64,000 nt of DNA, from the NCBI RefSeq assembly GCF_008933165.1, contig NZ_WBVQ01000002.1, forward strand, positions 953,569 through 1,017,568, written 5' to 3'. Below, in pieces: positions 33,971-41,744 of this stretch (position 1 is its first letter; each line of letters begins with the position of its first letter). The notes beneath the pieces were generated by a model. That model did no database searches and had not been told where the DNA came from. It was given only the letters and a program-made list of their open reading frames with translations. The DNA is from Phaeocystidibacter marisrubri (GTDB taxonomy: Bacteria; Bacteroidota; Bacteroidia; Flavobacteriales; Schleiferiaceae). The position numbers and the translations under genes were made by a program.

Positions 33971-36385
33971 ATGAAGAATACACCTGCATCATATATTCTT
34001 TTCGGACTTTTTCTCATTCTCTCTTTCCACACTGAAGCACAGCAGTATGTGGGGCAGATATTGGATGAACACGGAGAAACACTTCCCAACGTAACCATCT
34101 CGTGGGGAGAGGATCGTTCGCAAAAATTGATCTCGGATATCAATGGAAACTTCACCCTTCCTCATCGTCGATTTCGCATTGTGAAGTTTGAACTCATTGG
34201 GTATGAACCGAGCTCGTACCGCCCTGAAGATCTTCCCTCTGATGGAAAAATCGTCCTTTACGAAAAGGCCGAAGCGCTGAACGAGGTAACCATCTTTGCC
34301 CGTGAAAACCCAGCTTGGCGAATCGTTCGCAATGCAGTTCGACACAAGTCGGTGAACAACCCAAACCGCTACGATTCCTATCGATACACCAGCTATAACA
34401 AGAATGTAATCACCTACAACTTCGACATTGATTCCACCATGAGTTCAGCCGATAGTGCCGAGATTATGGCCGACAAGGCGAATGCCGTTAACCGACATTT
34501 GTTGGTGATTGAATCGGTGACGAAGAAGTACTACCACACGCCGAATCAGCATGCGGAAGAGGTAATAGGCACTAAAATTTCTGGATTCGAAAATCCAAAC
34601 ATCGCTACCATTCCAGATGGTATTCAGCACTTTGGTTTTTATGATGATTACATGCGATTATTGAACAAAGAATACCTCAACCCTATCGCCAAAGGGTTTG
34701 AAGATCGCTATGCCTTCATCCTACAAGATACCACTTACTCGGGAACGGACACCACCTTCATCATGAAGTACTTCCCCACGCGAGGGTCAAATTTTGAAGG
34801 GTTTGAAGGAGTGATTCACATCAACTCCAACGGCTGGGCGATTGAATATGTTACAGCAGAACCATGGGATAAAGGGAAGATTAGCCTGAGCATGGAGCAG
34901 CGCTACGAACGAGTTTACGGTGGCTATTGGTTTCCCGTTCAACTCAACTTCACCTTAGAACTAGAGCGTTTCCCCTTCCGAAAAAACGGAGCGGTGATGA
35001 TTGGAAAGACCTACCTCGATTCCATCTACGTGAACGTTCCCGTCCCGGAAGAAAAATTCAGCCATGTTCAAGTGAAAATGCGTGAAGATGCAGGCTTGGT
35101 GGACGATAGCTTCTGGGAACTTCGTCGGCCAACGGAACTCGACCCCCTAGAGCGTGAAACCGTTCGCCACATGGATAGCATCGGCGAGCGCTATAATTTA
35201 GGTGGGGTAATGCGCTCCACGCGACATGCGTATAGAGGCTTTCTTGCATTAGGCCCTATCAACTTAGACATGAAGCGACTTATTGCCAGTAGTCAATACG
35301 AAGGTTTACGACTGGGAATGGGGGTATACACCAACGAAGTGATCTCACCTTTCATCAGCGGAGGGGGATACTTTGGCTATGGTTTTAACGATGAACGATT
35401 GAAATACGGGGGCGAAATCAAACTCACCTTTGACACCGAAAATGACGGTTGGTTTAAGTATGAATACAAGAATGATGTTCGTGGCCCCGGGGTGATTGGC
35501 ATCAATTATTGGGAACGAACGTCCTTTGCCGAACAATTCTACAACGTGCGGATGGACCGCATTGAATCTCACGAAGTGATGTTGCGATCTCGTGCGTGGA
35601 CGTATCACATTTTTGAAGTGGGAGCCAAGAACTTCTCGCTTACTCCAACTTATGACTATGCCTTTGTAAACGACGAAGGGGAAGCCTCAACTTTCTACCA
35701 ATTTTCTGAAATCAACTTCGGTTGGCGATGGGTTCAAGATGAGCGAATCTTAGCTAACTATGGTCAGAAAATCACCACAGGTAGCAAGCTTTGGCCTGCT
35801 GTTCGATTGAACTATAGTCGAGGAATATCTGGCATATTTGGCTCCGACTTCGATTACAACAAATTGGAATTGGGGATTCAATTTGATCGCTTTACCAAGA
35901 ACTTAGGAAGAACGCTCATCAGTTTGGAGACCGGTATCGTAGATAGAGCTCTTCCCATTGGGATGAACTTTGGCGCTCGTCCATCCTACAGTTCCTCCTT
36001 CAGTGTAGTAGTGCCTAACTCCTTTCAGGCCATGCGATTCAACGAGTTCTTCAATTCCAGATATGTCGCCATGTACTTCATGCACGATTTCCGTTCCCTC
36101 CTTCTTCGAAGTGGATGGTTCAAGCCAGAAATTCGAATCTTTCAGGGCGTAGGTTATGGATTGCTCGACGAACCCGAAAGACATTTGAATGAAGATATCA
36201 AGGATATGCGCTATGGGTATTACGAATCAGGACTGGCGTTCGACAACTTGATACGAATCAATTTAGGCAACATGGGCTACTTCGGCATTGGCGTAGGTGC
36301 ATTTTACCGATATGGGCCGTATTCATTCCCGAATACACTGGATAACTTCTCTCTTAAAATGGCCTTCATGCTGTCCGTAAACTAA
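33971..36385 (+). CDS. DUF5686 outer-membrane protein with carboxypeptidase-like regulatory domain
   Basis: An 804-residue exported protein. Signal peptide about residues 1-23 (ending HTEAQQ); a carboxypeptidase-regulatory-like beta sandwich (about 25-100, VGQILDEHGETLPNVTISWG) follows, then the DUF5686 region, which starts with NPAWRIVRNAV and ends in many alternating strands (IRINLGNMGYFGIGVGAFYRYG), consistent with an outer-membrane beta barrel. Function is not established for the family. The ATG follows a weak TACCTTAG box by 7 nt. The esterase gene starts 4 bp after its stop, so the pair is an operon. Confidence 0.88.
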   Translation: MKNTPASYILFGLFLILSFHTEAQQYVGQILDEHGETLPNVTISWGEDRSQKLISDINGNFTLPHRRFRIVKFELIGYEPSSYRPEDLPSDGKIVLYEKAEALNEVTIFARENPAWRIVRNAVRHKSVNNPNRYDSYRYTSYNKNVITYNFDIDSTMSSADSAEIMADKANAVNRHLLVIESVTKKYYHTPNQHAEEVIGTKISGFENPNIATIPDGIQHFGFYDDYMRLLNKEYLNPIAKGFEDRYAFILQDTTYSGTDTTFIMKYFPTRGSNFEGFEGVIHINSNGWAIEYVTAEPWDKGKISLSMEQRYERVYGGYWFPVQLNFTLELERFPFRKNGAVMIGKTYLDSIYVNVPVPEEKFSHVQVKMREDAGLVDDSFWELRRPTELDPLERETVRHMDSIGERYNLGGVMRSTRHAYRGFLALGPINLDMKRLIASSQYEGLRLGMGVYTNEVISPFISGGGYFGYGFNDERLKYGGEIKLTFDTENDGWFKYEYKNDVRGPGVIGINYWERTSFAEQFYNVRMDRIESHEVMLRSRAWTYHIFEVGAKNFSLTPTYDYAFVNDEGEASTFYQFSEINFGWRWVQDERILANYGQKITTGSKLWPAVRLNYSRGISGIFGSDFDYNKLELGIQFDRFTKNLGRTLISLETGIVDRALPIGMNFGARPSYSSSFSVVVPNSFQAMRFNEFFNSRYVAMYFMHDFRSLLLRSGWFKPEIRIFQGVGYGLLDEPERHLNEDIKDMRYGYYESGLAFDNLIRINLGNMGYFGIGVGAFYRYGPYSFPNTLDNFSLKMAFMLSVN

Positions 36386-39275: not shown

Positions 39276-39297
39276 TATTTCCTGTTAGACATGATAG

Positions 39298-39320
39298 AGC
39301 CCGGCCAGTTTGGTCGGGCT
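39298..39320 (+). terminator. intrinsic terminator of superoxide dismutase gene
   Basis: AGCCCGGCCA pairs with TGGTCGGGCT (one wobble) around GTT, followed by seven T residues. Confidence 0.9.
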
Positions 39321-39442
39321 TTTTTTGGTTCTGGACTTTAAGCACCAGTCACTGACCAGTGATATTCTAACGCTCTCCTAGTTTAGCTCCCTTGCCTAAA
39401 CCCTTATGAAGTACTACCTTACCTTCACTCAACCTCTCTCAA

Positions 39443-40165
39443 ATGAAAAAGGCACTTGTAGTATGGTTATTTGTTTCAATGATTGCGCTATTTGTTTACT
39501 ATAGCACTAGCGACTACTATAATCGGCCTTTGCTCTCTTCACCAAACACGGCCGCTCAAACGGCGTCGGACACTGGACCTATAAATTCCGAAATTTACTT
39601 TCCAAATCACCCGCGGCTTCAAGCCATGATTGATACGATTCAGAAGACCCCAATAGAGCTTCGAATGACGGCTTTTTCCAGTAAGTCAGCCCTATTCCAC
39701 CATACTACGGTTGTAAAGTCGGACAGCACAGGACAGCCCACTCATGTATTTGTTCCGCCTTTTTCTTTGGACCAACTGTCACATGACAAATCTCTGACGG
39801 AAGAAGAGCGAGAGATCGTCTTGGATAAAATAAGCGAGCTCAAAGCAAACTTTGAGAACAAACTCCTACGTAGAGAGGGATTAGGACATCAGGAATACTT
39901 TCCAGAACATCCCAAATTACAAGCCATTGCTGACTCCATCGATCTGTACTCCTTCCGCATGATGGCAACGAGTAAATCCATCTACATTCACGATGCTGAG
40001 CCTTCCTCTTCAGGCACAATCTCTTTTGGAGGAGAAAGCACATTTGTCATTCCAAGCGATCTGAAAACAATGCTTGAAATGGACAACCTCACCAAAAGTG
40101 ATCGGGCCATTATTGAAAAAGTGGTAGCCGAACTTCGCATGCAACACCAGGAGCGAAATGAATGA
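39443..40165 (+). CDS. membrane-anchored protein of unknown family with internal duplication
   Basis: A 240-residue protein not recognised as any known family. Residues about 4-21 form an uncleaved anchor or signal peptide. Two copies of an about 88-residue unit follow, residues 49-138 and 149-236. Each starts YFPxHPxLQAxxDxI, contains RM.A.SKS, then FVxPxxL..L..D.LT, and ends in a helix (EREIVLDKISELKANF; DRAIIEKVVAELRMQH). The unit thus looks like a beta-alpha domain; the copies are diverged but clearly alignable. TACCTTCA lies 15 nt before the ATG. The hydroxylase gene overlaps its end by 8 bp, so function may be linked to that enzyme. Confidence 0.8.
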   Translation: MKKALVVWLFVSMIALFVYYSTSDYYNRPLLSSPNTAAQTASDTGPINSEIYFPNHPRLQAMIDTIQKTPIELRMTAFSSKSALFHHTTVVKSDSTGQPTHVFVPPFSLDQLSHDKSLTEEEREIVLDKISELKANFENKLLRREGLGHQEYFPEHPKLQAIADSIDLYSFRMMATSKSIYIHDAEPSSSGTISFGGESTFVIPSDLKTMLEMDNLTKSDRAIIEKVVAELRMQHQERNE

Positions 40166-41009
40166 ATTAGCTGGCACATTTTGGGTGTATTTCGAATCGA
40201 TTGGAGTGAGCCTGCTCTTCTTGTTTATCACTTTTATTCCCCTTGAAAAGACCTTTCCAGCAAATCCAGGGCAGCGGGTATTTCGACCTCAATGGATTCT
40301 AGATTTTTGCTTCATGGTAGGCCAATACCTTCTTTGGGGCGGATTGGTTCTCTGGGCCATGCAGCTCTATGCGGGCGAAGTGAGAAGCTGGTTACCCTTT
40401 GGATGGTTCAGCGAAGTGCGAAGTTGGCCTCTCTGGGTACAAGCCTGTGTAGTTATTGTGGCCAGCGATTTCCTCATTTACTGGGGTCACCGCTTACAGC
40501 ACAATGTTGATTTCCTGTGGCGTTTCCACAAGGTCCACCACAGTTCAAAAACCCTAGATTGGCTGGCGGCTTATCGCGAACATCCTTTGGATTCTATTTA
40601 CACCATAGGCCTGATCAACACACCTGCTTTTCTCTTAGGTTTTGATTTGAATGCCATAGCCGCTGTGATTGCTTTTAGAGGTGTCTGGGCCATCTACATT
40701 CACTCCAATGTAAGAATGCCAATTGGGCCACTGAAAATGATAATCGGCGCGCCTGAATTACACCATTGGCATCACAACCTAGAAAGAGACACAGGCAATT
40801 ATGCCAATATTAGTCCGCTAATGGACCTCTTATTCGGAACCTACGTCTGTCCCGATTACGAACCAGAAGCCTTTGGAATCGTGGAGGAAACACCTACATC
40901 TTACGTTGGACAAATGATTGAACCTCTACTGCCCAAGCAACTCTATCAGCGAATTCTTCGTTCTGACATTACTCTCTACTCCAACTTTAAAAAACCACGT
41001 GCCTCATGA
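40158..41009 (+). CDS. fatty acid hydroxylase / sterol desaturase family protein
   Basis: A 283-residue integral membrane di-iron enzyme. Histidine boxes: HRLQH (His111, His115), HKVHH (His124, His127, His128) and HHWHH near residue 198-202; about four hydrophobic segments surround them. The family hydroxylates or desaturates lipids, sterols or carotenoids; substrate is unknown here. Bacteroidota homologues commonly act on hydroxy fatty acids or carotenoids. The start overlaps the upstream duplicated-domain gene by 8 bp and the stop overlaps the next gene by 4 bp (ATGA), so the three are translationally coupled. Confidence 0.9.
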   Translation: MNELAGTFWVYFESIGVSLLFLFITFIPLEKTFPANPGQRVFRPQWILDFCFMVGQYLLWGGLVLWAMQLYAGEVRSWLPFGWFSEVRSWPLWVQACVVIVASDFLIYWGHRLQHNVDFLWRFHKVHHSSKTLDWLAAYREHPLDSIYTIGLINTPAFLLGFDLNAIAAVIAFRGVWAIYIHSNVRMPIGPLKMIIGAPELHHWHHNLERDTGNYANISPLMDLLFGTYVCPDYEPEAFGIVEETPTSYVGQMIEPLLPKQLYQRILRSDITLYSNFKKPRAS

Positions 41010-41668
41010 AAAAATCAACGCTCTCAGCTTTTGCATTACTTGCAGCTACCGCATTATCCGCACAAGAACTAGAATGCAACAATCCCTTTATTCGTGCTGG
41101 TGAATCCTTTCAAATAAACATCGATCTTAAATCATTCGAGAAGGAAATAGAAGACCAGCTTCCTGAAGGAGTAGAATACGACAGCCATGGTTTCGGATTT
41201 CAATCCAATTTCGATCTCATCATTGATGAACCGGGACAACACACCATTGGTCCATTCACCTTCGATTGGAACGGAACTCTCGTTTCTACAAATGAAATAA
41301 CAGTAACTATTCTTCCTGCGCTTGAGCCCAAAGAAGCTCTTTTTGTGAATTATATTGAACTCCCTAACGGGGAACACTACCTCATCACCGAAGAGTTTAT
41401 TGAGGGAAAGACAGATGAAGACGACTTTATAGGAGTGGAAGGGGATCAAATAGAAGGAATGAACCTCCGAAATTGTCGAATGCTAACGACTTCAGCGGAA
41501 AATGATGAAGGCACCAAATTCTCGTATCGCAAAGCGATATACATCGTGAGCGGCTCATCTGAATACCAGAGTATTGATGAAGGCATCTTTGACAATGATC
41601 CCGACGAAATCGTGTGGCAGTGCGAATGCAAAATCAGTGGCGGGCCTGTCCTGTCGCTGGGATACTGA
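41006..41668 (+). CDS. exported protein with BatD-like N-terminal beta domain
   Basis: A 220-residue protein with a signal peptide (about 1-20, ending TALSAQ). Residues about 24-110 resemble the first domain of the BatD/oxygen-tolerance family: ECNNPFIRAGESFQINID, then GQHTIGPFTFDWNGTLVSTNEITVTILP, which has the typical layout of a conserved Gly-Pro strand and a closing VTI. BatD proteins are larger (about 500-600) and have a C-terminal membrane helix, so this is a short, single-domain relative. The rest (about 115-220) is unknown, with Cys residues in LRNCRML and WQCECKI. It ends the three-gene operon. Confidence 0.7.
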   Translation: MKKSTLSAFALLAATALSAQELECNNPFIRAGESFQINIDLKSFEKEIEDQLPEGVEYDSHGFGFQSNFDLIIDEPGQHTIGPFTFDWNGTLVSTNEITVTILPALEPKEALFVNYIELPNGEHYLITEEFIEGKTDEDDFIGVEGDQIEGMNLRNCRMLTTSAENDEGTKFSYRKAIYIVSGSSEYQSIDEGIFDNDPDEIVWQCECKISGGPVLSLGY

Positions 41669-41692
41669 CGTACGAACGCGTTGAATAAAACA

Positions 41693-41720
41693 AAACCCCT
41701 GACAAATCTGCCAGGGGTTT
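41693..41720. terminator. bidirectional intrinsic terminator
   Basis: AAACCCCTG and CAGGGGTTT pair across a 10-nt loop with T residues on the plus side and A residues (T on minus) on the other, between the convergent exported-protein operon and icd. Confidence 0.88.
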
Positions 41721-41744
41721 TTCTATTTGCGACGGTATCGAACC

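Follow-up and report, generated by a model that had tools for sequence, protein, structure and literature searches.

Two adjacent genes of Phaeocystidibacter marisrubri, encoding a small membrane-anchored protein with a repeated SSKS motif (A) and a membrane hydroxylase (B), constitute a self-contained, dedicated two-gene cassette, the members of which are linked in cis and, once, in trans. An anchored motif protein lies directly 5' of B in 78 of the 79 orthologues for which the upstream side is visible, and a common role of A and B at the membrane is very probable; the first-pass annotation had proposed such a role for these two together with a BatD-like protein (C), which does not belong to the conserved pair. 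The A-B pair is apparently a widespread and undescribed partnership in which a small anchored protein bearing the motif accompanies an oxygen-using membrane enzyme, and a search of mainly open-access, peer-reviewed literature found no account of the pair or of the motif. Our preferred reading, which we put forward tentatively and at a little below an even chance, is that A is a multi-site substrate of B, with B acting on its repeats.

In the window, i.e. the whole stretch of 64,000 nucleotides that was analysed, the locus has the following features.

39296-39322, + strand: terminator-like hairpin 5' of the unit, 12 pairs, before gene A
39443-40165, + strand: gene A, open reading frame of 240 aa; membrane-anchored motif protein
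39449-39508, + strand: predicted N-terminal hydrophobic anchor of A, about residues 3-22 from the sequence; helix 2-27 in a low-confidence model
39677-39688, + strand: A motif copy 1, S-S-K-S, residues 79-82, context RMTAFSSKSALF
39968-39979, + strand: A motif copy 2, T-S-K-S, residues 176-179, context FRMMATSKSIYI
40158-41009, + strand: gene B, open reading frame of 283 aa; membrane di-iron hydroxylase of the A-linked clade; PF04116
40488-40541, + strand: B His boxes H111-H115 and H124-H128, invariant in 72 sequences
40578-40583, + strand: B E141-H142, a clade-specific acidic residue beside a His; E141 is invariant in orthologues
40761-40775, + strand: B His box HHWHH, H202-H206, invariant in 72 sequences
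41006-41668, + strand: gene C, open reading frame of 220 aa; short BatD-like secreted protein
41692-41721, - strand (scored strand): terminator-like hairpin 3' of the unit, 13 pairs, after gene C

The three coupled genes described at first pass are real, with confirmed reading frames that overlap by 8 bp (A/B) and 4 bp (B/C), and, since the hairpins flank A-B-C on both sides, they look like a single transcription unit here. Elsewhere in the window, at 33971-36385, a DUF5686 protein with a CarboxypepD_reg-like match adjoins a putative esterase. A conserved site beside isocitrate dehydrogenase was considered and rejected, not being seen in either of the two congeners.

The linkage emerged from an order-level search, which returned two true B orthologues (63% and 62% identity to B), both directly preceded by a short anchored protein with one or two copies of SSSKT/SSSKS, resembling the most conserved part of the two units of window A. 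A profile-derived scan of genome contigs yielded 167 B relatives, of which the best 80, at 57-67% identity, were used; these include the two loci that suggested the motif (L100 and L135) and carry titles from Bacteroidota/Ignavibacteria, Planctomycetota and Verrucomicrobiota, with two (L165, L167) titled as the gut genus Akkermansia. By a fixed rule, that a partner is a same-strand upstream ORF with a loose motif, 77 of the 80 B loci have a partner. The exceptions are L119, which starts at a contig edge, L152, where B runs off the stretch and the partner is seen by eye, and L127, the only observable B orthologue without an upstream partner, the genome of which has a five-copy A gene elsewhere. 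With L119 counted as a miss and L152 left out (n = 79), the orthologues scored 74 for a strict motif, 77 for a loose one and 73 for a strict motif plus anchor; the same test on 49 paralogue loci (50 were given, one being without a usable ORF) scored 1, 2 and 0, respectively, and inspection of 8 B-paralogue loci revealed no A- or C-like neighbours. In 66 of 77 cases, A and B overlap or are separated by no more than 20 bases, some of the apparent overlaps reflecting over-long choices of the B start. The test of neighbourhood conservation set beforehand thus came out in favour of A-B and against C.

A profile (A5) was built from 25 A homologues, excluding window A. It matched in 37 of the 38 B-orthologue genomes searched, the remaining genome (G785/L172) having a motif ORF seen by regular expression; among 395 Bacteroidota genomes it matched in three, in each case next to a B orthologue, and 26 of 28 newly fetched A-profile loci have B inside the flank. 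The genome of L103 has a second, unlinked A gene. Unlinked A-family proteins were observed at L209 (1492-2067, with five motif copies) and L211 (1387-1755, - strand), in genomes that also have a B orthologue. Carriage by phages or plasmids was considered and rejected: two phage records hold a 36% relative, plasmid relatives reach at most 36%, there was no confirmed viral-contig relative among 12 stretches, and an A homologue had no match when searched against plasmids.

The motif of the A homologues is roughly [IL]-M-[SP]-[SG]-S-K-S-[GAMI]-x-[IV]-[FIL], about 11 residues, often with P next; its K was required by the search pattern, so that the invariance of the lysine is partly by construction. 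There are one to five copies per protein, spaced 9-192 residues apart, with 154 strict copies in 77 A proteins. Of these, 148 lie beyond residue 40, as compared with a mean of 6.4 (maximum 14) when that part is shuffled, and other ORFs, with 186,996 residues in total, contain 23 copies. Motif columns are 44% identical versus 26% in other tail columns (564 pairs). In two proteins (L102, L143) there are motif-centred repeats, and in at least six of the 80 loci (L108, L113, L122, L126, L169, L171) two tandem A genes lie 5' of a single B; a seventh candidate (L134) proved to be a false positive. A clear hydrophobic anchor segment is present in 75 of 78 A proteins, and the charges around it (D+E 0.13 before and 1.31 after; K+R 2.25 before and 1.92 after) suggest a topology in which the N terminus is inside and the tail outside. 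With respect to other features of the family, the anchor is followed at 16 of 77 loci by another short motif, S-P-N-G, two adjacent basic residues lie within a few residues of the C terminus in 31 of 77 proteins, and the proteins of L142, L147 and L166 carry an additional hydrophobic segment nearer the C terminus, such that their tails would be held at both ends.

Window A belongs, as a diverged member, to what we here define as the SSKS tail-protein family: profile A5 recovers it in its own genome (E = 1.6e-4, 23.4 bits), and it has the anchor, two motif copies and a position upstream of a hydroxylase of the B clade. The self-duplication initially reported for A holds in that there are two diverged copies (33% identity; local alignment score 97, whereas the best of 2000 shuffles reached 48), but not in its period, which is 100 residues, from starts at residues 52 and 152, rather than 88. 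Nor is the long unit a conserved element. It was found nowhere else, a two-unit profile search of 88 family genomes giving no other match, whereas the SSKS core, two copies of which lie at the centre of the two long units, and the N-terminal anchor are widely conserved. Plain protein searches found A only in its own genome: only itself in the 88 family genomes and in 395 order genomes, two matches at E 0.2-0.3, neither significant, in 60 relatives besides G000, and no confirmed match in the 27 pattern stretches from a scan of genome contigs. We nevertheless reject an orphan status for A; the result reflects a limit of sensitivity, because homologues retain only the anchor and the motif, and it illustrates how a conserved partner can pass for a one-genome orphan in ordinary sequence search. 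Window A gave nothing above cut-off in Pfam, no match in NCBIfam or PADLOC, and a best E of 0.046 in PHROGs, and we regard its matches in Pfam, the PDB and PHROGs as noise; homologues likewise gave nothing above cut-off in Pfam (10 proteins) or NCBIfam (7 proteins). A represents an unnamed protein family. Its single-sequence structure model is poor (pLDDT 39).

The initial assignment of B as a di-iron hydroxylase-type enzyme is well founded (FA_hydroxylase, PF04116, E = 1.3e-31, 110.1 bits versus a cut-off of 31). An alignment of 72 sequences reveals invariance of H111, H115, H124, H127, H128 and H142, as well as of H182, H202, H203, H205 and H206. By alignment and tree, B is a compact, distinct clade of the known fatty-acid-hydroxylase superfamily, with 77 orthologues split from 53 paralogues (support 1.0, long stem of 0.88) and an identity to the window protein of 55-64% over 71 aligned homologues. 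Clade-specific invariant residues include Q114, E141, N154, R174, W177, G197 and E200; E141 is present in 0% of the 53 paralogues and E200 in 6% of paralogues. Paralogues near 30% identity are many. At L093 and L094, a hydroxylase of about 380 aa, about 33-35% identical to B, has a membrane N-terminal extension and, by eye, FKBP-like, trmD-like and rplS-like genes and a monomeric isocitrate dehydrogenase as neighbours. The structure model of B is confident (pLDDT 90.5); a Foldseek search against the PDB gave no significant match, and the best solved relative, yeast Scs7p (4zr0), is a weak match (Z 4.3, rmsd 5.7, 172 aligned residues, 16% identity). Lysine and arginine are abundant on the side of B that bears the His boxes (11.4 in 78 residues, as against 1.4 in 26), so the His boxes are probably cytoplasmic.

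In the mechanism that we infer, which extends from an A-B interaction and the use of A as substrate to the residue changed and the role of the product, A would be held in the membrane by its N-terminal helix, with its mostly unconserved tail presenting one to five motif copies; B would recognise and hydroxylate the motif [IL]-M-x-[SG]-S-K-S-x-x-[IV]-[FIL] at each occurrence, in a manner similar to the action of OlsE on ornithine lipids, in which the ornithine head group is hydroxylated. The motif lysine would be the best candidate residue. The more specific proposal, that B hydroxylates the invariant lysine of the SSKS repeats as a post-translational modification in Bacteroidota, Planctomycetota and Verrucomicrobiota, is less probable than not. 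The invariant lysine, and the acidic residues E141 and E200 beside the His boxes, may be consistent with a cationic target. The rapid evolution of the partner beside a well-conserved enzyme is substrate-like, as are a copy number of up to five, free spacing, motif-centred repeats and tandem A genes before one B; the variable motif number, free spacers, tandem partners and persistence in trans are consistent with a multi-site substrate.

These features bear directly on the main alternative, that A is an accessory subunit which docks, stabilises or places B, or presents a lipid or periplasmic partner to it, while B hydroxylates a lipid. This we consider almost as probable as the substrate reading, and the choice between the two is close to even. 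Enzymes of the superfamily usually act on lipids, the closest solved fold found, albeit weakly matched, is that of a sphingolipid hydroxylase, the tail of A is predicted to be outside, and the anchor is nearly universal, all of which count in favour of this alternative. The predicted side of the A tail, being opposite to that of the B His boxes, also counts against A as a substrate, which would need to be modified before export or to be inserted in the reverse orientation; further, a repeated binding motif would look identical, the resemblance to OlsE is non-specific in that paralogues match the same model, and we know of no enzyme of the superfamily that acts on a protein. On the other hand, the variation in motif number, the free spacing and the tandem A genes exceed the needs of a subunit, and A is unlinked in G774. 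We favour A as substrate because it explains the behaviour of the repeats, which an accessory role does not.

Two further possibilities appear improbable. That the three genes form a membrane or surface modification system to which the BatD-like protein is essential would fit the B/C overlap and the hairpins that bound the unit in the window, but tblastn with C at E<=1 found no match in the 80 B loci, and C has two clear relatives among 60 related genomes, both of which adjoin a TPR gene and lie away from A and B; such a system is thus very unlikely, and C is a local addition outside the conserved A-B cassette. The resemblance of C to BatD itself is a weak match to PF13584 (20.1 bits, below the cut-off of 24.1), and by eye no Bat genes lie directly beside C in the window. 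The pairs of a short C-related BatD-like protein with a TPR gene lie at 6287-7809 of L058 and 6709-8036 of L059; about 3 kb from the pair in L058, a gene for a BatD-like protein of 589 aa was seen by eye. Equally improbable is that A and B are simply transferred together, as a pair in which neither acts on the other. The patchy distribution, in which 3 of 395 order genomes (the window included) have a B orthologue with an identity of 60% or more, and the rarity of other neighbour families, none of which was seen at more than 4 of the 80 B loci, would suit such a pair; however, the co-occurrence persists when A and B are unlinked, spans three phyla (as titled), and the motif linkage is specific to the clade of B.

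The fatty-acid-hydroxylase superfamily is known for its action on lipids, sterols and pigments. A deep clade tied near-invariably, in three phyla, to a repeat-motif membrane protein points either to a new protein modification or to a new type of hydroxylase subunit. Because the motif is short, defined and easily mutated, and the pair comprises just two genes, the question of substrate or subunit is directly answerable.

With respect to known systems, OlsE (NF052566) is of the same superfamily as B and is the only NCBIfam model that matches it, over the catalytic domain, but the score of 120.9 bits is far below the curated cut-off of 475 bits. To our knowledge, OlsE has no SSKS partner. We reject an assignment of B as OlsE, since 10 of 10 paralogues also match the model (52-118 bits, compared with 121 for B). 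Yeast Scs7p, a sphingolipid fatty acid 2-hydroxylase, may have a related catalytic-domain fold, the match being weak; its substrate is a lipid chain, and it is not known to have a linked motif protein. OlsE is reported to hydroxylate an amino-acid (ornithine) head group (PMC3972451). Multi-core RiPP pairs differ from A-B in that no conserved transporter, protease or other neighbour family is present at the A-B loci, and our search of the RiPP literature found no enzyme of the type of B. In their organisation, the two are nonetheless alike, both having a short gene before the enzyme, a repeated core, free spacers and tandem precursors, with the membrane anchor of A replacing the soluble leader.
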